Shown here one piece after another: positions 4,958 through 16,042 of a stretch of DNA of 64,000 bases. The notes beneath the pieces were generated by a model. It saw nothing but the letters and a program-made list of their open reading frames with translations, searched no databases and had not been told where the DNA came from. Position 1 is the first letter of the stretch. The number at the start of each line of letters is the position of its first letter. Both the position numbers and the translations under genes were made by a program. Source of the DNA: Marinovum algicola (GTDB lineage: Bacteria > Pseudomonadota > Alphaproteobacteria > Rhodobacterales > Rhodobacteraceae); the NCBI RefSeq assembly GCF_900109145.1, contig NZ_FNYY01000007.1, positions 62,001 to 126,000 of the forward strand, given 5' to 3'.

Positions 4958-6037
4958 TCAGTTCAGCGAGACGCCGTAGGCCTCTTGCAGCCAGTTGGTG
5001 ACAAAGGCCTTGGCATCGGCCGACACGGTGGTGCCTTCCTTGGTGGCCCGGGCCGCGCCTTCGCCCACGAAGACCGGGTATTTACCGACCCGCTTGGCGG
5101 CGATTTCGGCAAAGTCGTCGCGGTTGCGCACCGCGTCGAAAGCCGCTTCATAGGTCTCGCGCACGTCATCCGGCGTGCCGGCCGGCAGGAAGGCGATTTT
5201 CTGCACCGGGAAACCGGCGATAAAGAAGGCTTTCCAGGCGTCCCAGGCTTCGCCGGAAGTTTCGCAGCCCTCGGTGGCTTCGCAGACTTCCTTGAAGGTC
5301 GGGATGTCCGGGAAGGTCGGGTCGCGGACGATGTTGCCATCGTCATCCAGCGCGCCCCAGGTCATCATCGGCACGGCGGTGCCGGCATCGACGAGATCCT
5401 TGGCGGCGCCGAGGTAGGCCGAGGAGGTCTGATAGTCGATGGTGGCTTCGCCGCGCTCGAACATCAGCCGGCCATCGCCGCGGCCCTTGATGCCGAACAC
5501 CGGCTCGACGTTCATGCCCAGCATCTGCCAGGCGAGCAGCGGCACCAGATCGAGGCGGGTGGCGCCCTGCGAGCCGTAGATGAAATCGATGTCTTTCAGG
5601 TTGTTGGCCGAGCCGTCGAATTTCTTGCCGTCTTCGGCGTTGAGATAGGCCACGCCGCCGGTGCCCGAGGCCATGACCGGCACCCAGTCGCTGTATTCAT
5701 AGCGCACGCGGGGATCGCCGAGCAGATAGGGGAATTGGGTCGAGCCGGAGGTGCCGAACATCAGCGTGCCGTCTTCGTGTTCCTGTTCCTGGAACCAGTT
5801 GGCGCCCTTGGTCGAGCCTGCGCCCGGCATGAACTTGACGACGACGGTGGGGTTGCCGGGCAGCTCTTCCGAGAGCAGCGGGGCAAAGAAATTGGCCCAT
5901 TTGGCCGAACCGCCGGTTTCCGAGAACGGGATAACCCATTCGATGGTCTCCCCGGAAAAATCGACCTCGGCCGAGGCGGCGGTGGCGGCGACAAGCGCGG
6001 CCGCAGCCACGGTGGATGCGAGTGTACGTATGGTCAT
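4958..6037 (-). CDS. TctC/Bug-type periplasmic solute-binding protein
   Basis: A 359-residue exported protein with an Ala-rich signal peptide ending in ASA before EVDFSGETIEW at about residue 24. The mature part opens with a first beta strand and loop typical of Bug receptors (IEWVIPFSETGGS), followed by a gene-family-like GAGSTKGANW segment. It delivers a carboxylate to the TctAB permease encoded next. It has a CEATEGCETSG segment with two cysteines that may form a disulphide in the periplasm. It is the first gene of the minus-strand operon. The promoter must lie in 6038-6187, shared with the divergent two-component system, and the direct repeat at 6150-6167 is a candidate activator site there. 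The ligand is unknown. Confidence 0.88.
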   Translation of the reverse strand: MTIRTLASTVAAAALVAATAASAEVDFSGETIEWVIPFSETGGSAKWANFFAPLLSEELPGNPTVVVKFMPGAGSTKGANWFQEQEHEDGTLMFGTSGSTQFPYLLGDPRVRYEYSDWVPVMASGTGGVAYLNAEDGKKFDGSANNLKDIDFIYGSQGATRLDLVPLLAWQMLGMNVEPVFGIKGRGDGRLMFERGEATIDYQTSSAYLGAAKDLVDAGTAVPMMTWGALDDDGNIVRDPTFPDIPTFKEVCEATEGCETSGEAWDAWKAFFIAGFPVQKIAFLPAGTPDDVRETYEAAFDAVRNRDDFAEIAAKRVGKYPVFVGEGAARATKEGTTVSADAKAFVTNWLQEAYGVSLN

Positions 6038-6149
6038 TGGTGTCCTCCCTGGACGGTTTCGATTGCCTCACGGTCTCCCGTCCGGCGCAATCGGTCTTCC
6101 ATTAAGGGAACGAATCCCCTCTCCAATGGAGACACAATGACGTTCCAAC

Positions 6150-6167
6150 CTTGCGCGAAACTTGCGC
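6150..6167. promoter_or_regulatory. candidate OmpR-type response-regulator site between tctC and tctD
   Basis: CTTGCGC occurs at 6150-6156 and again at 6161-6167. The period is 11 bases, the arrangement usually bound by dimers of OmpR/PhoB-type regulators. The same stretch also reads as the inverted pair TTGCGC/GCGCAA. It lies 113 bases upstream of the binder gene and 21 bases before the regulator's ATG at 6188. Binding by the adjacent regulator is inferred. Confidence 0.45.
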
Positions 6168-6187
6168 AACATGACAAAGTTCACGCC

Positions 6188-6859
6188 ATGCGAATTGCCA
6201 TCATCGAAGACAACGTGGAGCTGGCCCACGGCATTGCCTATCGGCTGCGCGACCGTGGTCATGCCGTGGACGCGCTGCATGACGGCGAAGAGGCCGACCG
6301 GTTTCTCGCCCAGGAAGGCGCCGATCTGGTGGTGCTCGACATCAACCTGCCGGGCATGTCCGGGCTGGATATCCTGCGTGCGCTGCGGCGGCGCGGGGAC
6401 GGCACGCCGGTGATCCTCCTGACCGCGCGCAGCGAAACCGAAGAGCGGGTGGCGGGGCTGGATGCCGGGGCCGACGATTACCTGACCAAACCCTTCGAGA
6501 TGGACGAGCTCGAGGCGCGGCTCCGGGCGCTGGCACGGCGCAAGGATCTTGTGTTCTCGGCCCGTGACAGGCTTGGCGGGCTGGTCTTCGACCGCAGCGC
6601 GCGGCAGCTCCTCGATGGCGACCGGCCGCTCGAGATCCCGCGCAAGGAGATCGCGACGCTGGAATGCCTGTTCGAACGGCGCGGGCGGATCGTGTCGAAG
6701 CCGCAGCTCATGGCGCATGTCTACGGCACCGGCGCCGATGTCGAGGACAGCGCCATCGAGCCGCATGTCTCGCGGCTGCGTAAGCGCCTGGAATCCTACG
6801 GCGTGCGGATCAAGACGGCGCGCGGGCTGGGCTACATGCTGGATGTCGACGGCGCATGA
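6188..6859 (+). CDS. OmpR-family response regulator, TctD-like
   Basis: A 223-residue regulator. The receiver domain occupies about 1-115, with acidic pocket IIEDN, phosphoacceptor D51 in VLDINLPG, and K101 in DYLTKPF. A winged-helix output domain follows, with the usual C-terminal RGLGYMLDV. The stop overlaps the kinase start by four bases. The start MRIAIIEDN at 6188 matches the family but has no clear ribosome site. An in-frame ATG at 6137 has GGAG five bases upstream and would add 17 residues, but those codons cover the direct repeat at 6150-6167. It is divergent from the TTT operon, as tctD is from tctC in classical systems, so it probably activates that operon in response to the imported carboxylate. 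Confidence 0.92.
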   Translation: MRIAIIEDNVELAHGIAYRLRDRGHAVDALHDGEEADRFLAQEGADLVVLDINLPGMSGLDILRALRRRGDGTPVILLTARSETEERVAGLDAGADDYLTKPFEMDELEARLRALARRKDLVFSARDRLGGLVFDRSARQLLDGDRPLEIPRKEIATLECLFERRGRIVSKPQLMAHVYGTGADVEDSAIEPHVSRLRKRLESYGVRIKTARGLGYMLDVDGA

Positions 6860-8247
6860 CCCGCACCGCCCTGTCGCTGCGTGCGCGGCTCTTTCTGATG
6901 ATCCTGGCGCCGTTGATCCTGGTGGCGATCCTGCTGGGATTCTGGCGGATCGAGACGGCGCGGGCCACCGCCGAAGACCTGTTCGACCGCGGCCTGCTGG
7001 CCGCCGCGCTGGCCATTTCCCGCGATGTGGCGATTTCCGAGGGTGACGCGCTGTCGCCGCGCACCCGCGGGCTGATCTCGGACGCGGGCGGCGGCGAATT
7101 GTTCTATCACGTGACCGGTCCCGGCGGCATCTATGTCACCGGCTACGCCTATCCGCCGCGCCAGAGCGAGCCGCGCGCGGGCGACGGCCCGCATTATTTC
7201 CGCGCCCTCTATCGCGGCGAGGCGGTGCGCGTGCTGCGGATGTCGGAAACCACCACCATCGGCAATCTGACCGGCGAGACCGTGGTGACCGCCTGGCAGC
7301 GGATCAGCGACCGCAACGCCTTTGCCGCCGCGCTGGCCCGCCGCGCGGTGGCCCTGATGGCCGCGCTGATCGCGACGCTGGCCATCGTCGTCTGGTTCGG
7401 CGTGCAATTCGGCCTGCGCCCGCTGCGCGATCTTCAGGACGCCATCGAACAGCGGTCGCCGGACGACCTGAGCCGCATCCGGCGGCCGGTGCCGGCCGAA
7501 GTCACGGGGATCGTCGCGACGCTGAATCGTCTGCTCGGCCAGGTCGATCATTCGATCCAGACCCACCAGGCCTTTATCTCCGACGCCGCGCACCAGCTGC
7601 GCAATCCGGCGGCGGCGATCCTGTCGCTGGCAGAGACCCTGCCGGATGTGACCGACCCCGAGGCCCGGCGCCAGCGCGAGCAGGAGCTGATTTCCGCCTC
7701 GCGCAAATCGGCGCGGCTGGCCGGGCAGCTGCTGCATCTGGAACGGCTGCACTATGGCAACACCGCCACGCCGGAACCCTTTGACCTGAATGCCGTGGTC
7801 GAGGAAGTCTCCGCCGATCTGGCGCCGGCGGTGCTCGGTCAGGATATCGCCTTTTCCTTCGACCGCAGCCCCGAGCCCTTGCCGGTCTGCGGCGATGCCA
7901 CGCTGATCGGCGAGGCCGTCCGCAATCTGATCGACAATGCGCTGCGCCATGGCGGGCCGGGGCTCGGCCGGATCGCGATCCGAACCCTGCGGCAGGAGGA
8001 TCGGGCATTGGTCGAGGTCACTGACGACGGGCACGGGCTGTCCCCCGACAACTCCGAGATCGCCTTTCGGCGGTTCGGTCAGGTCGAGCCCGGCGAAGGC
8101 AGCGGCCTCGGCCTCTCCATCGTGCAATCGGTCGCCACGCTTCACGATGGCGAGGTCGAAGTCGGCGATGTGCCCAATGGCGCGCTCTTGCGGTTGCGGT
8201 TGCCGCTCACTGCCGGGGCGCCGGCGACAGGAGGCGGCAGCGCGTGA
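6856..8247 (+). CDS. sensor histidine kinase, TctE-like
   Basis: A 463-residue inner-membrane kinase. TM1 (about 10-30) and TM2 (about 163-182) flank a periplasmic sensor of the TctE N-terminal type. A short HAMP-like region and the H-box ISDAAHQLRNPAAA follow, with phospho-His at 246, then N-box NLIDNALRHG (357-366), DDGHG (390-394) and GSGLGLSI (415-422). The H-box has Asn-Pro after HQLR where most kinases of this type have Thr-Pro; that Thr usually assists the phosphatase reaction, so phosphatase activity may be altered. It overlaps the regulator gene by four bases (ATGA). It is the likely sensor for the solute of the divergent TTT system. Confidence 0.92.
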   Translation: MTRTALSLRARLFLMILAPLILVAILLGFWRIETARATAEDLFDRGLLAAALAISRDVAISEGDALSPRTRGLISDAGGGELFYHVTGPGGIYVTGYAYPPRQSEPRAGDGPHYFRALYRGEAVRVLRMSETTTIGNLTGETVVTAWQRISDRNAFAAALARRAVALMAALIATLAIVVWFGVQFGLRPLRDLQDAIEQRSPDDLSRIRRPVPAEVTGIVATLNRLLGQVDHSIQTHQAFISDAAHQLRNPAAAILSLAETLPDVTDPEARRQREQELISASRKSARLAGQLLHLERLHYGNTATPEPFDLNAVVEEVSADLAPAVLGQDIAFSFDRSPEPLPVCGDATLIGEAVRNLIDNALRHGGPGLGRIAIRTLRQEDRALVEVTDDGHGLSPDNSEIAFRRFGQVEPGEGSGLGLSIVQSVATLHDGEVEVGDVPNGALLRLRLPLTAGAPATGGGSA

Positions 8248-8250
8248 AAA

Positions 8251-8272
8251 GGGCGGCCTCGCAGGGCCGCCC
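8251..8272 (-). terminator. hairpin terminator between tctE-like gene and class I aldolase gene
   Basis: GGGCGGCC (8251-8258) pairs with GGCCGCCC (8265-8272) around a six-base loop. On the minus strand the stem is followed by TTTT. It lies in the short gap between two converging genes, so it ends the aldolase transcript and may also stop the kinase transcript. Confidence 0.65.
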
Positions 8273-8299
8273 GGTGTCGTTCCGGAAATGCGCCGGGGC

Positions 8300-9193
8300 T
8301 CAGCCCGCTTTCGACGCCTGATAGATCGAGTCGATCGCGTCGCCCAGCTTGGCGTTGAAATCCTCGTCGCTCTGCTGTGCCGAGAGGCCTTCGGTCAGCC
8401 CGCGCGAGAAGCTGGCGATCAGCCCTTCGTTTCTGGCCAGAAGCGTGTTGGCCTCGTCGCGCGAATAGCCGCCCGAGAGCGCCACGACGCGCATCACCTT
8501 GGGGTGGTCGATCAGCGGCTTGTAGAAATTGTCCTCGCTGGGCAGCGACAGCTTGAGCATGATCTGCTCGCCTTCGGGCAGTTTGTCGAGGTGCTTGAGG
8601 ATCTCGTCGCGCAGGATCGCCTCGGCTTCGGCCTTGTCGTCGATGGTGATCGTCACCTCCGGTTCGAGGATCGGCATCAGCCCGTTGGCCTTGATCTCGC
8701 GGCCGAACTCGAACTGTTGCGAGACGATGGCGGTGATGCCGGCCGGGTTGGCCGCATCGATCACCGAACGCATCTTGGTGCCGTAGATGCCCTTGCCCAC
8801 GGCGCGGGCGCAGAGCGCGTCGAGACCGGGAATGGCCTTCATCAGCTTGACGCCATCGGTCGGTTCGCAAAGCCCCTTGTCGACCTTGAGAAAGGGCACG
8901 ACGCCGCATGTGTCCCAGAGGTATTCGGCGGTGGGCGTGCCGTCGATGTCGCCGTCCATGGTGCGTTCGAACAGGATCGCGCCGATCACCTTGTCGCCGG
9001 AAAAGGCCGGCGATTTGATGATCCGGGCCCGCATCTCGTGGATCAGGCCGTACATCTCTTCGTCACCGGAATAGGCGTCTTCCTCGATGCCGTAAAGACG
9101 CAGCGCCTTGGGGGTCGAGCCGCCCGACTGGTCGAGTGCCGCGATAAAGCCGTCCTTGTTGGCCATCTGCTTGGCCATTGCGTCGTTGCTCAT
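8300..9193 (-). CDS. fda: fructose-bisphosphate aldolase class I
   Basis: A 297-residue Schiff-base aldolase of the short bacterial class I type, cleaving fructose 1,6-bisphosphate to the triose phosphates in glycolysis and joining them in gluconeogenesis. Visible family blocks are FIAALDQSGGSTPKAL near the start, LFERTMDGDIDG, FLKVDKGL, LEPEVTI and IMLKLSLPSEDNF; Lys 214 in the last block is the likely Schiff-base lysine by analogy. VVALSGGYSRDEAN is the phosphate-binding end of the barrel. The start ATG has only a weak GGA upstream. A LacI-type half palindrome lies about 100 bases upstream (9293-9304). pgk is encoded further upstream on the same strand, with the orphan gene at 9641-11119 between them. 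Confidence 0.93.
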   Translation of the reverse strand: MSNDAMAKQMANKDGFIAALDQSGGSTPKALRLYGIEEDAYSGDEEMYGLIHEMRARIIKSPAFSGDKVIGAILFERTMDGDIDGTPTAEYLWDTCGVVPFLKVDKGLCEPTDGVKLMKAIPGLDALCARAVGKGIYGTKMRSVIDAANPAGITAIVSQQFEFGREIKANGLMPILEPEVTITIDDKAEAEAILRDEILKHLDKLPEGEQIMLKLSLPSEDNFYKPLIDHPKVMRVVALSGGYSRDEANTLLARNEGLIASFSRGLTEGLSAQQSDEDFNAKLGDAIDSIYQASKAG

Positions 9194-9640
9194 GGAAATG
9201 TCCGTCCCGAAAGTTGATCACCGGGGCGTGACCGCCCCCTGTCTGGCAGTGGTAAGCGAGGGGGCCGGCGCTTGCAATGTGCAGCGCGGCGTGATGGCGC
9301 TAACTTGGCCGCTCTGTTGCCCACGGGGCGACAGGGCAGGCGCGGCGCACCGGGCGTGGCCTCGGACAAGGGCCGGCGGGCCCGGGCGCCTTGCGCGAGG
9401 GGAGCCTGGGCGGGCGACGGCGCGCGCGATCCATCCAGGGGGAAGGGGGGCTTGGAGGCCGGACTATTTGATGCTGCGCTACGCGCGAACGGCTGCAATG
9501 CGCAGATAGCAGACTTTGCAAAATACTGTTGACGGCTCAAGGCAAAGCGCACCGGCTTTGTACACCACATCCACAGCTTTGTTTTCCTCCTTTCACAGGG
9601 ATGGTGCACATGTCATGACCTTACGCACCATCTTGGTCGT
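9194..9640. other. 447-base intergenic region upstream of the aldolase gene
   Basis: No gene is supported here. The part up to about 9500 is GC-rich like the host genome and must contain the aldolase promoter, including the LacI-type site at 9293-9304. From about 9500 the composition becomes AT-richer, joining the orphan gene's region. GATGGTGC (9600-9607) and GCACCATC (9625-9632) form an 8-bp inverted repeat with a 17-base spacer just after the orphan gene's stop. It could act as a 3' hairpin, but there is no T-run. Confidence 0.5.
9293..9304. promoter_or_regulatory. LacI-type operator, 10/12 match, upstream of the aldolase gene
   Basis: GATGGCGCTAAC matches the perfect palindrome GTTAGCGCTAAC, found in front of zwf and eno, at 10 of 12 positions, with the right half-site intact. 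It is about 100 bases upstream of the aldolase start. Assignment to the same regulator is inference. Confidence 0.4.
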
Positions 9641-11119
9641 TCAAACGGCCTTCGAACCTGAAGCTTTATTGTCCTTGCGCGCATCGATGAGAACAATGTC
9701 TTTGCTGTCTTCGAGAGCAAGCCGCTTCAATATTCGCTGAACGCGAGTCAACTGTGAATACGAGAAGTAAACAATGGCCTTTATAGCGCGTTGCGCATCT
9801 GATGATGCTTGATATATGTCAGTTTGCTTTTTGAGATTCATCTCAAGTTTTGTGTTTTTTGCCAGCTTCATCTCGACCAGCGTCTTTTCTCTACCGCGGG
9901 ATATTTTGAAGTCAACCGGCCCGCGACCATCATTGGCCTCGGTACCTGCATCCGACGGTGTTCCGAACCAAACCAATCGGTACAGTATCTGAACGTCTTT
10001 CTCTCTTTCGACCGCATTTCCATTTTCGTCATAGAAGATACGCCAGCCTCCCATGTCTTCGATGACGTGCTTCAGGTAAGCGAGTCGAATATGAGCTTCT
10101 TCGTACGTGCCGGGCTTTACGCGGTAGAAATCGGTTCCAGCCAGAACAGGCTGGAGAACTTCGCGGAGGCGCTTGGAGAAAAACAATTCCGTTGCGAAGA
10201 CCTTCTCAAAGCTCAAATCAGTAGCATCATCGCCAGTGTCTTCTTTCAACTTGATGTAATAGTCGATAAGTTCAGGAAACTGCCGGATAGTCTCTGTCGC
10301 TGCCTCAGCCCTCTCTGCTTTCGTAGGATGTCGCCCCTTCTTCTTGCGTGCTTTGAGTTCTCTCTCAAAGTAGTTGCTGACGGACGCCCTAAGGCTACCG
10401 TCAGGGATGGCTGTAGGAATATCTTGGAACCTATGGATTAAATCACTAGTATTGATCCATGTGTCGTCCCTCGTAAGTATGTCCTTGGGGGTAAGGATAA
10501 TATAATCACCTTTGTACCAAGGCAGTTCGTAGCGCTTCCTCTGCCATGATTGTGTTTTGAAATTGAAAACGGCCCTATCAATCCAGACTTCTCGTGTTTG
10601 GTCTTCACGCAAATGCACCTTGGCGAAGCTCTCCGTGTATTTGCACAGAAAGTCCTGGATAAGGTTTGTCACGAAATCGCTTATGTTATCCCGTCCGACT
10701 CCGCTCGACACCAAGCATACTTTCTCCAAGTGAGAGCTTTCGGTGATGCTCTCCTCGCCAAAGTTTGCGAAGATGACATTCAAATTTTCGTGTAAACTTC
10801 TTGCAAAGCCCATCCCGAGACCGGAACCACCGTTTCCAACCATCGAGAAGCCAAACCAGTTTTGTTTTACTTCCGGGAAGCAATACCAGTTACGTAGCAT
10901 TCCGTCACTGACGTTGCTGTCCGCTGCCCTATCTCTCAGAAAGATCAGGTATTCGATGATGCCCTCGTGCAGGTCCTGATATTCTTGCTTCTCGCTGTGA
11001 AAGAGAAGGAACGGATCAATAAAAAGTGGCAAATCGTTGATGATCGACACATCGAAAGCCCCGTACTCGTCGACCGCTGATTTTTCCAAATTGAATGCAT
11101 CGCTAAAAAAGGTAGCCAA
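9641..11119 (-). CDS. orphan protein with a C-terminal PD-(D/E)XK nuclease-like motif
   Basis: A 492-residue soluble protein with no signal peptide or membrane segment. I recognise no named family. The C-terminal third carries a RecB-like nuclease signature in the right order: GPVDFKIS (D403), VEMKLAK (E416-x-K418) and KKQTDIYQ (Q432-xxx-Y436), followed by an amphipathic strand/helix. The N-terminal part (EYGAFDVSIINDLPLFIDPFLLF) and a glycine-rich patch (MVGNGGSGLGMGF, about 93-105) are of unknown role. The only usable start is TTG at 11119, with GGAG eight bases upstream. Composition is visibly AT-richer than its neighbours: the 60-base lines at 10261 and 10441 have 32 and 26 G+C. It sits alone between pgk and the aldolase gene, which suggests horizontal acquisition. 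A single-gene defence or DNA-repair nuclease is plausible but unproven. Confidence 0.7.
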   Translation of the reverse strand: MATFFSDAFNLEKSAVDEYGAFDVSIINDLPLFIDPFLLFHSEKQEYQDLHEGIIEYLIFLRDRAADSNVSDGMLRNWYCFPEVKQNWFGFSMVGNGGSGLGMGFARSLHENLNVIFANFGEESITESSHLEKVCLVSSGVGRDNISDFVTNLIQDFLCKYTESFAKVHLREDQTREVWIDRAVFNFKTQSWQRKRYELPWYKGDYIILTPKDILTRDDTWINTSDLIHRFQDIPTAIPDGSLRASVSNYFERELKARKKKGRHPTKAERAEAATETIRQFPELIDYYIKLKEDTGDDATDLSFEKVFATELFFSKRLREVLQPVLAGTDFYRVKPGTYEEAHIRLAYLKHVIEDMGGWRIFYDENGNAVEREKDVQILYRLVWFGTPSDAGTEANDGRGPVDFKISRGREKTLVEMKLAKNTKLEMNLKKQTDIYQASSDAQRAIKAIVYFSYSQLTRVQRILKRLALEDSKDIVLIDARKDNKASGSKAV

Positions 11120-11435
11120 CCGGAGTACTCCATATATTGCGTGTTAAGCCGATACTGACACAATGTACAACAACTCAAACGCGAATGTAAGAGGAGGCGT
11201 TTTCCCTAAAGAATGGTCCCGCGAAAGGTCTGTAAAAGGACGCAAAAGCCCCCGATATGTAACAGGTCGGGTATTCTGCAGCGTCCGCTTCGGGCTGGGT
11301 GCCGTCATTCGCCGCTTCGGCGTGAACAACCGCTTCGTCCGCCAGCAGGCACCCAAGGTCAAATGCCCTCGCAACGATCTGCGAGGGCGCCTGTGTGCAA
11401 CGCCTGCTCCGGGCCTCCGGCCTTGGTCGGAGGTG
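11120..11435. other. intergenic region between orphan gene and pgk, with pgk terminator
   Basis: No convincing gene. The AT-rich part next to the orphan gene (about 11120-11230) must hold its promoter. GC-richer sequence follows. GCCCTCGCA (11365-11373) and TGCGAGGGC (11380-11388) form a perfect 9-bp hairpin with a six-base loop, followed on the minus strand by ATTT; this is the probable pgk terminator. The stretch 11280-11360 is GC-rich and unassigned. Confidence 0.55.
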
Positions 11436-12611
11436 TCAGCCGAGGGCGGCGACGCCGGGCAGGGTCTTGCCTTCCATCCATTCGAGAAAGGCGCCGCCGG
11501 CGGTGGAGATATAGGTGAAATCCTCGGCCGCCCCGGCCTTGTTGAGCGCCGCCACGGTGTCGCCGCCGCCGGCGACCGAGATCAGCCTGCCGGCCTTGGA
11601 CAGTTCGGCGGCCTGTTTCGCGGCGGCATTGGTGGCGCGGTCGAAAGGCTCGATCTCGAAGGCGCCCATCGGGCCGTTCCAGATCAGCGTCTTGGCGTCT
11701 TCCAGCACCTCGGCCACCTTCTTCACCGTCTCCGGCCCGGCGTCGAGGATCATCGCGTCGGCGGGGCAGGCATCGGCGGCGACGGTCTCGTTTTCGGCCC
11801 CGGCCTTGAATTCGCGGGCGACCACCACGTCGAGGGGCAGCAGGATGTTGCAGCCGGCGGCCTGGGCCTTGGCCATGATCTCGCGGGCGGTGTCGGTCAT
11901 GTCATGTTCGGCCAGCGATTTGCCGACGTCGATTCCCTGCGCGGCGAGGAAGGTATTGGCCATGCCGCCACCGATCACCAGATGATCGACCTTGCTGACC
12001 AGATTGCCCAGCAGGTCGAGCTTGGTCGAGACCTTGGCGCCGCCGACCACGGCCACCACCGGGCGCTCCGGCTGGCCGAGCGCCTTTTCCAGCGCCGAAA
12101 GCTCGGCCTGCATCAGCCGGCCGGCGCAGGCCGGCAGCAGCCGCGCCACGCCCTCGGTCGAGGCATGGGCGCGGTGCGCGGCGGAAAACGCGTCGTTGCA
12201 GTAGACGTCGCCCAGCGAGGCGAGGAATTGCGCCATCTTGGGATCGTTCTTCTCTTCCATCTCGGAGAACCGGGTGTTTTCCACCAGCACGATGGTCCCC
12301 GGGGCCAGATCGTCCAGCGCCTCGCGCGAGGGGCGTTCGACAAAGGTGACCGCCTGGCCGAGCGCGGCTTCGAGCGCGGGCACCACCTGTCGCAGGCTCA
12401 TCTCGGGCACCGGCTTGCCCTTGGGGCGGCCGAAGTGGGCCAGCATCACCGGGGTGCCGCCCTTGGCGAGGATATCCCGGATCGTCGGAACGATGCGCTG
12501 AATGCGGGTGTCATCGGTCACTTTGCCGTTATCCATCGGCACGTTGATGTCGACACGCGTCAGCACGATCTTGCCGTCGAGGTCCATGTCGTCGAGAGTT
12601 TTCCAGCCCAT
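11436..12611 (-). CDS. pgk: phosphoglycerate kinase
   Basis: A 391-residue cytosolic enzyme that transfers phosphate between 1,3-bisphosphoglycerate and ADP. The N-terminal substrate loop [22 protein letters not shown], the basic patch AHFGRPKGK, the hinge segment [14 protein letters not shown] and the C-terminal nucleotide loop [12 protein letters not shown] are all present, and the length is standard. The start follows GGAAGGAACACC. A weak LacI-type site (12652-12663) lies about 40 bases upstream of the ATG, and the hairpin at 11365-11388 ends the transcript. gap and tkt, often next to pgk in related bacteria, are not in this window. Confidence 0.96.
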
Positions 12612-12651
12612 CTCGGTGTTCCTTCCCTAGGGTTCAGGTTGCGCCTTGTTT

Positions 12652-12663
12652 GGCCGCTAACGG
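12652..12663. promoter_or_regulatory. weak LacI-type half-site upstream of pgk
   Basis: TTGGCCGCTAAC matches GTTAGCGCTAAC at 8 of 12 positions. Only the right half CGCTAAC is intact. Its position, 41-52 bases before the pgk ATG, fits an operator, but alone it would be weak evidence. It is listed because zwf, eno and the aldolase gene carry the same motif. Confidence 0.3.
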
Positions 12664-12742
12664 CCGGAGGGTCAATCGCGTGCTTGCCGCGGGCGCGCTG
12701 GCAAATTAGGTATCAGGCCAATTGCATGCAGAGGAGGGCCCT

Positions 12743-13249
12743 ATGGCCGAGATCAAGGATCCCGAAAACACCATCCTGATGGAACTCAAGGGCGGCACTG
12801 TCACCATCGAGCTGTTGCCCGACGTGGCCCCCAAACATGCCGAGCGCATGAAAGAGCTGGCGCGCTCCGGCGAATATGACAACGTCGCCTTTCACCGGGT
12901 GATCGACGGTTTCATGGCGCAGACCGGCGACGTCCAGCACGGCGACATGGAAGACGGGTTCAACATCCGCATGGCCGGCACCGGCGGCTCCGACAAGCCC
13001 GATCTGCCGGCCGAATTCTCCAAGCTGCCGCATGACCGCGGCACCCTGGGCGCGGCCCGCTCGCAGAACCCGAATTCCGCCAATTCGCAGTTCTTCATCA
13101 ACTTCAAGGACAACCATTTCCTCAACGGTCAATACACCGTCTATGGCCGTGTGGTCGCGGGCATGGAACATGTCGATGCCATCACCCGCGGCGAGCCGCC
13201 TGCGGAGCCGGACCGGATGATCTCGGTCAAGGTGGCCGCCGATGCGTAA
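12743..13249 (+). CDS. cytosolic peptidyl-prolyl cis-trans isomerase (cyclophilin)
   Basis: A 168-residue cyclophilin without a signal peptide. The catalytic block FHRVIDGFMAQTGDV holds the essential Arg, and the active-site blocks NSANSQFFI and FLNGQYTVYG follow. The start MAEIKDPEN was chosen because GAGGAGGG sits just upstream; the ATG seven codons earlier has no such site. The stop overlaps the next cyclophilin gene by eight bases. The two products are clearly paralogous (shared HRVIDGFMAQTGDVQ and GGSDKPDLPAEFS), one cytosolic and one exported, so a tandem duplication gave a pair serving two compartments. It is divergent from pgk. Confidence 0.93.
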   Translation: MAEIKDPENTILMELKGGTVTIELLPDVAPKHAERMKELARSGEYDNVAFHRVIDGFMAQTGDVQHGDMEDGFNIRMAGTGGSDKPDLPAEFSKLPHDRGTLGAARSQNPNSANSQFFINFKDNHFLNGQYTVYGRVVAGMEHVDAITRGEPPAEPDRMISVKVAADA

Positions 13250-13823
13250 ACTGACCCTTGCCCTCGGCGTGATGGCCGGCCCGGTGCTGGCAGGTCTGGC
13301 GGGTGCGCCGGCAGGCGCCACCGGTCTCGAAATCGAGATCGAAGGCGCGGCCAACGGCACCGTCAGCATCGATCTCTTCGAAGATGTCGCCCCGAAACAC
13401 GTGGCGCAGATCACCGAGCTGGCGGCGGCCGGCGCCTATGACGGCGTGGTGTTTCACCGGGTGATCGACGGCTTCATGGCACAGACCGGCGACGTGCAGT
13501 TCGGCAATTCCCAGGCTGAAGGGTTCTCGATGCAGATGGCGGGCCGCGGCGGTTCGGACAAGCCCGACCTGCCGGCGGAGTTCTCCGATCTCGCTTTCGA
13601 GCGCGGCGTGGTCGGTATGGCCCGCTCGCAATCGCCCAACAGCGCCAATTCGCAGTTCTTCATCATGTTCGAGCCGGGGTATTTCCTGAACGGGCAATAC
13701 ACCGTCGTCGGCGAAGTGACCGAAGGTATGGAGGTGGTCGACGCCATCCATCGCGGCACCGGGCCGAATGGTGCGGTCGTGGGCGCGCCGGACCTGATGA
13801 AAACGGTGACTGTCACCGAGTGA
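13242..13823 (+). CDS. exported peptidyl-prolyl cis-trans isomerase (cyclophilin)
   Basis: A 193-residue cyclophilin with a signal peptide (MRKLTLALGVMAGPVLAGLAG, likely cleavage around residue 26 after Ala), so it acts in the periplasm as a protein-folding catalyst. The catalytic block FHRVIDGFMAQTGDVQ and NSANSQFFI are intact. It begins inside the last eight bases of the cytosolic cyclophilin gene, so the two are translationally coupled. The C-terminus has an extra GTGPNGAVVGAPDLM loop compared with its partner. A GC-rich tandem repeat follows at 13866-13918. Confidence 0.92.
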   Translation: MRKLTLALGVMAGPVLAGLAGAPAGATGLEIEIEGAANGTVSIDLFEDVAPKHVAQITELAAAGAYDGVVFHRVIDGFMAQTGDVQFGNSQAEGFSMQMAGRGGSDKPDLPAEFSDLAFERGVVGMARSQSPNSANSQFFIMFEPGYFLNGQYTVVGEVTEGMEVVDAIHRGTGPNGAVVGAPDLMKTVTVTE

Positions 13824-13865
13824 CCTCCTTCGCGGGCGCCTGAAGGGGCCCGCCTCGGACCTGGT

Positions 13866-13918
13866 CCGGGAGCCTGCCCCGGACGTGATCCGGGAGCCTG
13901 CCCCGGACGTGATCCGGG
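13866..13918. repeat. 24-base tandem repeat, two copies plus a partial third
   Basis: CCGGGAGCCTGCCCCGGACG plus TGAT (13866-13889) is repeated exactly at 13890-13913, and the next bases CCGGG begin a third copy. Each unit contains CCGGG/CCCGG self-complementary halves, so the array can fold. It lies between the exported cyclophilin gene and the DUF3179 gene. It may act as a weak terminator or simply be an intergenic repeat. Confidence 0.7.
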
Positions 13919-14058
13919 GTTTCCCGGTCATCGACCGCGAGGTCCCGGATCGGGGTCCGGGACGCGGGGGGCGGGTGTGCACGGATGATCAAACCCGCGT
14001 GCCGGGGGCTAGGCAAGGGCCCCCCGCGCGGCGCATCCTGAAGAAAAGGGGATGCGCC

Positions 14059-15030
14059 ATGATTTTCAGAACCACCATTCTTGCCGCGGTCTGTGCGGCG
14101 CTGGCCACGCTGGCCACGGCCGAACCGAGGGCCTGGCAGGGCGAATGGCCCGATACCAATTTCAACAAGACCACCGTCGACGCCTGGTCCGAAATCCTCT
14201 CAGGCGGCCCGCCCAAGGACGGCATACCGGCGCTCGACAATCCCGGTTTCATTCCGGCGGCGCGCGAAACCCGGATCGGGGCGCGCGAACCGGTCATCAC
14301 CGTCGAGGTCAGGGGCGCCGAGCCGCGTGCCTATCCGATCCGATATCTGACCTGGCACGAAATCGTCAATGACACCGTGGCCGGGGTGCCGATCGCCGTC
14401 ACCTTCTGCCCGCTGTGCAACTCCGGCATCACCTTCGACCGGCGCACGCGCCACGGTGTGCTGAGCTTCGGGGTTTCGGGCAAGCTGCGCAATTCCGACA
14501 TGGTGATGTATGACCGCCAGACCGAGAGCTGGTGGCAGCAGGCCCTGGGCGAGGCGATTGTCGGCGATCTGACCGGCACCGTGCTCGACACCCTGCCGAC
14601 CTGGATGGAAAGCTGGGCGCAGTTCAAGGAGCGCAACCCCCAGGGGCTGGTGATGAAAGAGCCGTCATGGTCCCGCGATTACGGCCGCAACCCCTATCGC
14701 AACTACGACAGCTCGAAGCAGCCCTTCCTCTATAACGGCGAGATGCCACCGCATGGCATTCCGCCGCTGATGCGGGTGGTGCGGGTCGGCGACCGGGCCT
14801 GGCCGATGTCGCGTTTCGACACCCAGCAGAAGATTAGCGAAGCCGGCGTCACGCTGACCTGGAGCAAAGGTCAGGCCTCGGCGCTGGACGCCAGCCGGAT
14901 CGATCAGGGCAGGGAAGTCGGCACCATCCGGGTGCGCGACGCGTCGGGCCGCGACCTGCCACATGACATGTTGTTCGCCTTTGCCTTCCATGCCTTCTGG
15001 CCCGATGGCCGCTGGATGCTGGGACAGTAA
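14059..15030 (+). CDS. DUF3179 domain-containing exported protein
   Basis: A 323-residue protein with a signal peptide (MIFRTTILAAVCAALATLATA before EPRAWQ). The body matches the DUF3179 family: ITVEVRGAEPRAYPIRYL, then TWHEIVNDTVAGVPIAVTFC, then CPLCNSGITFDR with the conserved Cys-Pro-Leu-Cys-Asn-Ser motif, and DRQTESWWQQ further on. The function of the family is not known to me; the CPLC pair in an exported protein suggests a redox or metal site. The start was chosen at the signal peptide, preceded by AAGGGGAT. It converges on the radical SAM gene. Confidence 0.88.
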   Translation: MIFRTTILAAVCAALATLATAEPRAWQGEWPDTNFNKTTVDAWSEILSGGPPKDGIPALDNPGFIPAARETRIGAREPVITVEVRGAEPRAYPIRYLTWHEIVNDTVAGVPIAVTFCPLCNSGITFDRRTRHGVLSFGVSGKLRNSDMVMYDRQTESWWQQALGEAIVGDLTGTVLDTLPTWMESWAQFKERNPQGLVMKEPSWSRDYGRNPYRNYDSSKQPFLYNGEMPPHGIPPLMRVVRVGDRAWPMSRFDTQQKISEAGVTLTWSKGQASALDASRIDQGREVGTIRVRDASGRDLPHDMLFAFAFHAFWPDGRWMLGQ

Positions 15031-15059
15031 GGCCGCACGCGAGACCGGGCTTTGGCCCT

Positions 15060-15083
15060 GCGGCCCTGCTCAGGCGGGGCCGC
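15060..15083. terminator. possible terminator hairpin between converging genes
   Basis: GCGGCCC (15060-15066) pairs with GGGCCGC (15077-15083). It lies in the 58-base gap between the ends of the DUF3179 and radical SAM genes. There is no T-run on either side, so this is a weak candidate. Confidence 0.35.
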
Positions 15084-15088
15084 GCGGC

Positions 15089-16042
15089 TCAGCCCGAGCA
15101 GCTCGCCCCGCCCAGCACGCAGAACTTGGCACAATGGGGATGGTTGAGCGCGACCGGGCGCTCGGCCTCTTCCAGCGTCTGGCCGAGGTCGAACTCGGGC
15201 TCATACGGCAGGAGCGTGCAGGCCAGCACCGAAAGATGCCCGGCGCCCTTGCGCTTGACCACCATCCGGGAGGAGGAGCACATCACATCCTTGGGCGATT
15301 TGCCCAGGATGCCCCAGCAGGCGGTGGTGATCTCGGGCACTTCGACCCGGGTGTCCATTTCGGGAAACAGCACCGTCTCTGCCGGGCTGTCGGCGTCGAT
15401 GGCAAAGCCTTCGTCGGCAAAGAGCCGGCCAAAGCCCTGCCGCGCCGCCGCTTCGCTCTCGGCCCAGATGATCCGCCCGGCAACCGCCATGCGCACGCCC
15501 TGATCGCGCAGCCAGCGCATGCCGACAAGCGTGGACTCGTAGCTGCCCTCGCCGCGCTCGGCGTCGTGATGCACCCGGCTCCAGTGATCGAGTGAGACGC
15601 GCAGCGTGAGCTTGTCGCCGTATTCCGCCTGAAGCTCGGCAATCCCCGCCTGCACGCGTTTGCGCATCATCGGTCGCATGGCATTGGTCAGGATCAGAAC
15701 CTCGTAGCCGCGCGCCAGCGCAGCGCGCGCCATGGCGACCATCTCGGGATTCATGAAGGGCTCGCCGCCGGTAAAGCCGATCTCGCGCACGCCCCAGCGC
15801 CGCGCCTCGAGTTCATCGAGATAGCGCGCCACTTCGGCCTCGGTGATATAGACCAGCGCATCGTTGCTGGGCGAGCTTTCGATATAACAATTCGCGCATT
15901 CGATGTTGCACAGGGTGCCGGTGTTGAACCACAGGGTCTGCGGATCGCTGAGCGCGACCTTGGCGCGCGGCTCGCCCTTGGCGGTCAGGTCGGGGTCGAT
16001 GAATTTGCCGACATTGGCGTCGGAAAGCGTTTGATCTTTCAT
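15089..16042 (-). CDS. radical SAM protein
   Basis: A protein of about 317 residues from the ATG at 16042. The radical SAM CxxxCxxC motif is CNIECANC, preceded by LWFNTGTL, and it binds the 4Fe-4S cluster that cleaves S-adenosylmethionine. GFTGGEPFMNPE is the SAM-contacting 'GGEP' motif. Cysteines in TACWGILG, DVMCSSS, LACTLLP and the terminal CAKFCVLGGASC could hold an auxiliary cluster, as in SPASM-like enzymes. A longer reading to 16180 would start at GTG and run into the zwf promoter region; I prefer the ATG. The substrate is unknown, and there is no peptide precursor gene beside it. The DUF3179 gene converges on it. Confidence 0.85.
   Translation of the reverse strand: MKDQTLSDANVGKFIDPDLTAKGEPRAKVALSDPQTLWFNTGTLCNIECANCYIESSPSNDALVYITEAEVARYLDELEARRWGVREIGFTGGEPFMNPEMVAMARAALARGYEVLILTNAMRPMMRKRVQAGIAELQAEYGDKLTLRVSLDHWSRVHHDAERGEGSYESTLVGMRWLRDQGVRMAVAGRIIWAESEAAARQGFGRLFADEGFAIDADSPAETVLFPEMDTRVEVPEITTACWGILGKSPKDVMCSSSRMVVKRKGAGHLSVLACTLLPYEPEFDLGQTLEEAERPVALNHPHCAKFCVLGGASCSG

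Follow-up and report, generated by a model that had tools for sequence, protein, structure and literature searches.

What is an AT-rich gene for a 492-residue protein doing between pgk and the class-I fructose-bisphosphate aldolase gene of Marinovum algicola? The gene lies on the minus strand of the window analyzed here, a 64,000-nucleotide stretch of contig NZ_FNYY01000007.1 (positions 62,001 to 126,000 of the forward strand; assembly GCF_900109145.1), and an initial annotation made from the sequence letters had proposed that it was a nuclease of a defence system or mobile element, acquired recently. Our analysis indicates that the gene, recently transferred between distant genera, entered this locus horizontally as part of a 1.8-kb unit, that the C-terminal part of its product is predicted to be a PD-(D/E)XK nuclease, and that the whole is probably a self-contained, mobile, single-gene defence nuclease directed against foreign DNA, its defensive role being suggested by the gene neighbourhoods of its relatives.

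In composition, the gene differs sharply from its surroundings. Its GC content is 0.475 versus about 65% across the window, the 1-kb bin at 10001-11000 stands at 0.483 while the other bins range from 0.575 to 0.788, and its GC content at third codon positions (GC3), 0.55 compared with 0.87 for the aldolase gene and 0.89 for pgk, is the lowest among the open reading frames (ORFs) listed for the window. Of the common start codons in the frame, TTG lies furthest upstream, and the Shine-Dalgarno-like GGAG that precedes it keeps identical spacing in the copies of the gene found in Paracoccus and Roseovarius (L022, L023, and L024; Table 1). The 492-residue frame, the TTG start, and the AT-richness described at the outset are all borne out, as is the splitting of the pgk/aldolase locus, both neighbours being confirmed by Pfam.

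The evidence for transfer comes from comparing the gene with its genomic context. Proteins 95-96% identical to that of the window occur in Paracoccus onubensis, P. alkanivorans, and Roseovarius spongiae, whose PGK proteins are only 71-73% identical to the window PGK; the Roseovarius aldolase is 67% identical to its counterpart, and an aldolase match sought in both Paracoccus genomes was not found. When positions 5001-16000 of the window were compared by blastn with the three loci, the sole matching stretch was 9500-11297, at 90.4, 90.6, and 92.9% DNA identity. Because identity is confined to this stretch, the single gene must have moved as a 1.8-kb unit, which agrees with the stretch first delimited (9500-11230) except in being slightly longer. 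The Paracoccus and Roseovarius copies have a GC content of 47-48%, with GC3 at 0.54-0.55 in the window, L022, and L024 copies. The ratio of nonsynonymous to synonymous substitution rates (dN/dS) between copies in different genera is 0.07-0.15, which argues that the protein is kept functional. A profile of the relatives, run against a wider sample of the family, matched 10 of 295 genomes, the Marinovum genome included, at E ≤ 1e-10, and since that genome scored 805 bits and the others at most 73, the latter represent distant branches.

The nuclease gene is also missing from all 3 other genomes of the same genus that we examined. In 2 of them, G002 and G001, pgk and the aldolase gene are neighbours separated by about 0.42 and 0.26 kb, without a family member between them; the contig of G003 ends at this site, and the gaps in G001 and G002 are too diverged to define a base-exact empty site, so absence is claimed at the level of the gene. 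From 198 genomes we chose 66, window included, in which the 2 genes lie close together on one strand, leaving out those in which they are far apart, on separate contigs, or not both listed (aldolase was matched in 115 genomes and pgk in at least 192); the median gap is 148 bp, against 2245 bp in the window. Vertical descent at this locus throughout the family, the alternative to acquisition named initially, is refuted by the same-genus absences and the clear horizontal transfer. These nucleotide and codon comparisons demonstrate horizontal acquisition of the 1.8-kb unit, placed between pgk and the aldolase gene, and purifying selection on it across genera.

How such a unit moves is a question in itself. 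It contains no transposase, the nuclease gene is the only coding-supported ORF within it, and no inverted pair at its ends (9500/11297) appears among the 25 longest of the 40 repeats listed. One 17-nt inverted pair, 82% matched (9582/11230), is set 50-80 bp in from the ends, and the lists for the other 2 copies do not include it. Recurrent mobile-element ends were considered and rejected: with at most 1 mismatch allowed, the genome has 3 copies of a 15-bp left-end motif, counting that of the unit, versus 5 of its reversed control; the window has a single copy of an 18-bp left motif against an expectation of 0.30; and the right-end motif occurs in the window at chance level. The whole unit ends gave only short further matches in the genome, of which the best, 37 bp at 87%, pairs window 9486-9522 at the left end with G000:C15:32022-32058 (L056), beside a GC-poorer stretch; this may be a shared recombination sequence or chance. 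The simplest inference is homologous or illegitimate recombination after delivery by a plasmid or phage, and relatives of the nuclease are found on 15 plasmid records, 9 of them typed conjugative. The unit is a tidy natural example of a lone gene that travels without any mobility gene, accompanied by about 300 bp of flanking DNA. We also considered, and set aside, the pgk-aldolase gap as an insertion hotspot: gaps above 1.7 kb occur in 9 of the 66 genomes, window included, and the one such gap that was read, that of Roseovarius spongiae (outside the 66), is without a nuclease relative. It spans 1.9 kb (L083:1232-3138) and holds a 546-codon open frame of 70% GC, the nuclease copy sitting elsewhere in that genome.

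If the gene is maintained, what does it encode? Searches of the 492-residue protein against Pfam, NCBIfam, and PDB sequences gave nothing usable, with AAA_23 and MrdA matching at E 0.06 or worse. We aligned the protein with 24 relatives (A6, 25 rows), and used a second alignment of 28 rows (A4) and a third of 14 rows that includes distant branches (A1). E373, E394, and the residues picked out in the initial annotation (D403, E416-x-K418, and Q432-xxx-Y436) are invariant in all rows of A6. AlphaFold2, run on the 25-sequence alignment, gave a mean predicted local distance difference test score (pLDDT) of 83 and a predicted template modelling score (pTM) of 0.70 for the whole protein. Residues ~335-480 follow the alpha-beta-beta-beta-alpha-beta order of restriction endonucleases in this model, so that structure prediction gives the C-terminal part the fold whose absence would have told against the first reading; D403 and E416-x-K418 are placed at strands 404-408 and 411-419, followed by a helix at 425-440 and a strand at 444-451.

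The top rows of a Foldseek search against the PDB are mostly Nt.BspD6I, McrBC, cap-snatching endonucleases, PspGI, Cdn1, MUS81, and Hjc, all of which we take to be PD-(D/E)XK enzymes. With VIA-align, BstYI reached Z 7.5 (129 residues, 3.5 Å), McrBC chain M 6.4, Can2 6.0, EcoRV 5.6, and the Shedu nuclease domain of Bacillus cereus 5.1 (123 residues, root-mean-square deviation [rmsd] 6.0), all below 8 and therefore in the range of chance arrangements. QxxxY following the ExK strand is a motif of RecB/Cas4-type nucleases, and the label "RecB-like" originally given to the protein describes this motif only; among solved folds, the best-scoring (BstYI, the McrBC chain, and Can2) are other PD-(D/E)XK enzymes and rank above the Cas4 protein SSO0001 (4ic1; Z 5.8, rmsd 11.8), all at Z below 8. 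In a viral structure library the best match has E 1.7e-3, and rows for restriction endonucleases or PD-(D/E)XK nucleases recur. The fold scores are modest, and combined with invariant active-site residues they make the assignment firm enough to act on: the model and the conservation support the C-terminal ~145 residues as a PD-(D/E)XK nuclease with an intact predicted active site.

The N-terminal part is conserved too. D29, D35-P36, E83, G98, H130, E132-K133, G142-x-D144, and S147-D148 are invariant in A6, and D29, D35-P36, E83, G98, D144, and S147-D148 hold in all 14 rows of A1, distant branches included. Conservation as strong as that of the nuclease site suggests either a site for a ligand or a second active site. 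The Gly-rich loop noted at the start is real and conserved (G95, N96, G98, and L101 are invariant in A6), with residues 87-98 modelled below pLDDT 50. Modelled alone, residues 1-332 gave pLDDT 86 and pTM 0.85, and neither Foldseek against the PDB (best E 2.2) nor VIA (best Z 5.2 over 53 residues) found a convincing fold match for them, in line with the earlier description of this part; a failed match does not make the fold new. Two families do reach it by sequence: residues 22-231 match PADLOC candidate PDC-M36A (E 3.1e-19, 67 bits; profile positions 23-225 of 457), and PHROG 30194, of unknown function, matches residues 4-487 at E 7.2e-27.

Relatives of the protein, at 34-96% identity, were found at 20 genome loci in Alphaproteobacteria, Bacteroidota, Planctomycetota, Saccharibacteria, clostridial and Bacilli metagenome-assembled genomes, and Gastranaerophilales. 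The 15 plasmid records add Actinomycetota and Betaproteobacteria, and IMG/VR contigs add 8 loci, with integrase genes (L061, L064, and L012) and tail-sheath genes (L063) on the viral contigs. Going by the record titles from which phyla were taken, the relatives span at least 6 phyla, plus plasmids and viral contigs. They fall into 3 branches: the single-gene family, a second branch (L004, L005, L009, and L068) that matches over both protein parts, and PDC-M36A (L006 and L007), matched over the N-terminal part, to which L070, L073, and L074 possibly belong. In the C-terminal part of L006 an ExK...QxxxY pattern is readable by eye and is not confirmed by the family profile.

The defence reading draws on the surroundings of 35 loci of the single-gene family (L011-L019, L022-L041, and L061-L066; L059 and L060 duplicate L011 and L012 and do not add to the count, each of the similar plasmids L015-L017 and of the similar contigs L063/L066 has its own place in it, and the fragmentary plasmid matches of Bradyrhizobium and R. 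leguminosarum, L020 and L021, are left out along with the G-handle loci). A restriction- or defence-type gene lies nearby in 12 of them: L013, L018, L019, L026, L031, L037, L038, L039, L040, L062, L064, and L065. Type I restriction-modification (RM) genes are near the relative in L031, L037, L038, L039, L040, and L064. Relatives embedded in such operons, as in L038, L039, L040, and L018, make the strongest cases. In L038 the order is hsdM (2 ORFs), the gene, hsdS, and hsdR on one strand, and in L040 hsdM ends within about 20 bp of the relative, the contig ending inside the latter. MmeI stands beside the relative in L013 and shares an operon with it in L018, GmrSD and ResIII/RE_endonuc genes are neighbours in L065, and GmrSD-type genes are also near L038. 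The grounds are weaker for L026 (a helicase and GIY-YIG 4 kb away) and L019 (OLD-TOPRIM and UvrD 4-6 kb away). When 106 of 164 chosen neighbour proteins from the 20 genome loci were scanned with PADLOC, the 25 most frequent of 283 matching families were type I RM subunits only, with at most 7 methylase, 6 specificity, and 5 restriction-subunit members. Clustering of the neighbours gave no family in more than 5 loci and so no constant partner. Core genes lie near some copies (metF in L030, dnaE in L041), and the distant-branch relative L009 is beside a terminase.

Several of these arrangements merit description for their own sake. In L039 (5573-13809) a type I RM operon reads hsdM-AbiJ_NTD4-gene-hsdS-hsdR, with 2 genes embedded between hsdM and hsdS. 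A Paenarthrobacter plasmid (L018:77-7452) carries 4 overlapping genes, for an MmeI-type methylase, a DEAD/DEAH helicase, a GIY-YIG (T5orf172) protein, and the relative; helicase and GIY-YIG recur in L026, a T5orf172 gene directly abuts the distant-branch relative in L068, and sets of the L018 type are possibly a separate multi-gene defence system. On a viral contig (L062:3690-4565) a KwaB-like (Kiwa) gene follows shortly downstream of the relative. On a Roseomonas plasmid (L014:4688-5992) a gene with helix-turn-helix and Peptidase_M78 (ImmA/IrrE-type) domains ends 9 bp before the relative and is a possible regulator.

Table 1. Coordinates of the features discussed, in window positions.
Feature	Position	Strand	Basis
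Class-I fructose-bisphosphate aldolase gene (host locus)	8300..9193	-	PF00274, E 1.8e-9
Unit of horizontal transfer: gene with ~180 bp upstream and ~140 bp downstream	9500..11297	.	blastn against L022, L023, L024
Predicted sensor-nuclease gene, 492 aa, TTG start	9641..11119	-	ORF; dN/dS; 24 relatives aligned
Predicted C-terminal PD-(D/E)XK nuclease domain, residues ~335-480	9680..10117	-	model; VIA-align
Q432-xxx-Y436 motif, helix after ExK strand	9812..9826	-	invariant in A6; helix 425-440
E416-M417-K418 codons, ExK motif	9866..9874	-	E416 and K418 invariant in 28 rows of A4 and 25 of A6; model strand 411-419
D403 codon (predicted metal ligand)	9911..9913	-	invariant in 25 rows of A6; missing in Janthinobacterium row (L019) of A4
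N-terminal part, residues 1-332, without fold match	10124..11119	-	conservation; modelled alone
Shine-Dalgarno-like GGAG, 8 nt before TTG	11128..11131	-	sequence; kept in L022, L023, L024
pgk (host locus)	11436..12611	-	PF00162, E 1.8e-150

Near the gene itself, a PADLOC scan of 10 ORFs in and around it gave nothing better than E 0.035, consistent with the lack of a partner gene reported initially. A transfer RNA search of the window and an Rfam search of 8900-11900 found no match.

With restriction- or defence-type neighbours at 12 of 35 loci, the protein is probably a self-contained anti-phage nuclease. The protein alone is constant and its defence context variable, which fits a self-contained sensor-effector better than a subunit of some larger system. 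In such a scheme, the ~330-residue N-terminal part would recognize some sign of foreign DNA, whether a phage product, a DNA end, or a modification state, and would restrain the nuclease until triggered; the nuclease would then cut phage or plasmid DNA, or host DNA too in an abortive response. There is no methyltransferase in the 1.8-kb unit and none was recognized in the adjoining ORFs (unlinked methylases of the genome were not searched), and since neither this nor any other gene travels along, the protein itself should tell self from non-self, as in Shedu-type nucleases. The enzyme would then supplement RM already present in the cell or operon. If this is a working single-gene defence, it would be a compact, broadly transferable immune module whose sensor part lacks a fold match, and it would assign a role to an N-terminal family otherwise represented here by nothing more than the PDC-M36A candidate and phage families of unknown function. 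No surprise in principle is involved, and with one gene and defined point mutants the candidate is directly testable.

A number of observations weigh against this reading. Assigning a sensor role to the N-terminal part is guesswork. The window has no recognized defence island, its genes looking housekeeping by eye, with PADLOC covering only the 10 nearby ORFs. At 23 of the 35 loci no defence neighbour was found, neighbours having been scanned selectively and without control loci, so that enrichment is unquantified. A tblastn search of 50,697 phage records at E 1e-5 returned no relative. On the structural side, Foldseek against the PDB gave no match at E ≤ 0.001 and had chains of clamp loaders and methyltransferases in its first 50 rows, and the non-nuclease Rep15 reaches a VIA Z of 5.4 within the top 50, where all the nuclease scores are likewise below 8. 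The nuclease part taken alone has a dN/dS of 0.37 between the window and Roseovarius copies, on 11 changes, and L033 and L066 have a split reading frame. The Janthinobacterium relative (L019:5983-7425) is without D403 and QxxxY but retains E416/K418; its nuclease may be inactive or altered.

The main rival is a modification-dependent, type IV-like nuclease, in which the N-terminal part would read foreign DNA that is methylated or modified in another way and the C-terminal part would cut it. Such an enzyme would be a single gene and need no methyltransferase, a McrBC chain, presumably McrC, is among the best structural neighbours (Z 6.4), and relatives stand beside methylating RM systems, with GmrSD-type genes near L065 and L038. 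However, the enzyme would have to tolerate the methylation by type I RM systems, whose operons enclose several of the relatives, or by MmeI, which is next to others, and neither sequence nor fold searches recognized a known modified-base reader in the N-terminal part. We consider this explanation unlikely, while granting it a real share of the probability.

If instead the protein served a phage or plasmid, in competition between elements, superinfection exclusion, or DNA processing, and was stranded here from one, then its relatives on viral contigs (with tail-sheath genes in L063) and conjugative plasmids, and the terminase beside distant-branch L009, would be expected company. Yet no mobile-element gene is common to the copies of the window, Paracoccus, and Roseovarius, and other relatives are found in RM operons or near metF and dnaE. 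We regard a mobile-element nuclease as improbable, and in practice such a role overlaps with defence. An orphan type II enzyme, or an RM remnant that has lost its methyltransferase and relies on a host methylase elsewhere, would account for BstYI, a type II enzyme, being the best structural match of the nuclease domain, and for MmeI adjoining the gene in L013 and sharing its operon in L018. It sits poorly with the lack of a constant methyltransferase neighbour (the search covered linked genes), no neighbour family having clustered in more than 5 loci, and with lone copies under purifying selection at 3 sites (window, Paracoccus, and Roseovarius), and we give it very little weight. An acquired gene outside defence, such as a repair nuclease, has a Pyrococcus repair endonuclease, Hjc, and MUS81 among its structural neighbours to recommend it, but the patchy distribution (10 of 295 family genomes) and repeated defence neighbours misfit housekeeping repair and make this, too, highly improbable.

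The single-gene defence nuclease could also be one part of something larger. An undescribed superfamily of self-contained immune nucleases would have in common a new N-terminal sensor, present in the single-gene form, PDC-M36A, and a third branch. In at least 6 phyla, the single-gene form would spread as a minimal 1.8-kb unit without a mobility gene and insert itself into loci of type I RM, of the MmeI-helicase-GIY-YIG set, and of viruses. We offer this tentatively and lean somewhat against it. Under such a scheme, the sensor might itself be catalytic, through the invariant D29/D35/E83/D144/D148 set.

How does the protein compare with systems already described? Its nuclease-domain fold resembles those of McrC/type IV (Z 6.4) and BstYI-type II enzymes (Z 7.5), both scores being below 8, whereas no McrB-type or methyltransferase gene was recognized among the 10 ORFs in and around it. 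Shedu is a single anti-phage protein that joins a variable N-terminal part to a PD-(D/E)XK domain at the C-terminus, its sequence family being DUF4263/SduA. The architecture is similar, and the Shedu nuclease domain is among the structural matches of the window domain (Z 5.1, within the same low range), but no Shedu/DUF4263 match was listed at E ≤ 10 with Pfam or PADLOC, where HMMER filters drop most matches above E 0.1. PHROG 30194 matches nearly the full length and has no assigned function. This match, with that of PDC-M36A to residues 22-231, makes the word "undescribed" in the initial annotation too strong.

PDC-M36 is a two-component (A and B) phage-defence candidate of PADLOC-DB 2.0.0. 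Its members L006 and L007, from two genomes of the family, align over the same N-terminal region and carry the D-P and G-x-D-x-I-S-D signatures, but they match the PDC-M36A profile at full length with 742 and 652 bits, against 67 bits over 210 residues for the window protein, and the profile of the window family does not reach their C-terminal parts. Each also has 2 adjacent PDC-M36B genes, and none was found among the 10 window ORFs scanned. With a partial match and no B gene, the window protein falls outside PDC-M36 as that system is modelled, and is best read as a single-gene sister of it. The literature searched yielded no use of the term "PDC-M36"; 2 papers present the PADLOC PDC set as "guilt-by-embedding" candidates, mostly without experimental validation (PMC12988326, PMC10855318). 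PD-(D/E)XK domains are a frequent feature of recently validated defence proteins, being reported in 13 of 31 further systems (PMC13092281). The kind, a PD-(D/E)XK defence protein, is therefore known, and the gene between pgk and the aldolase gene is a new form of that kind.

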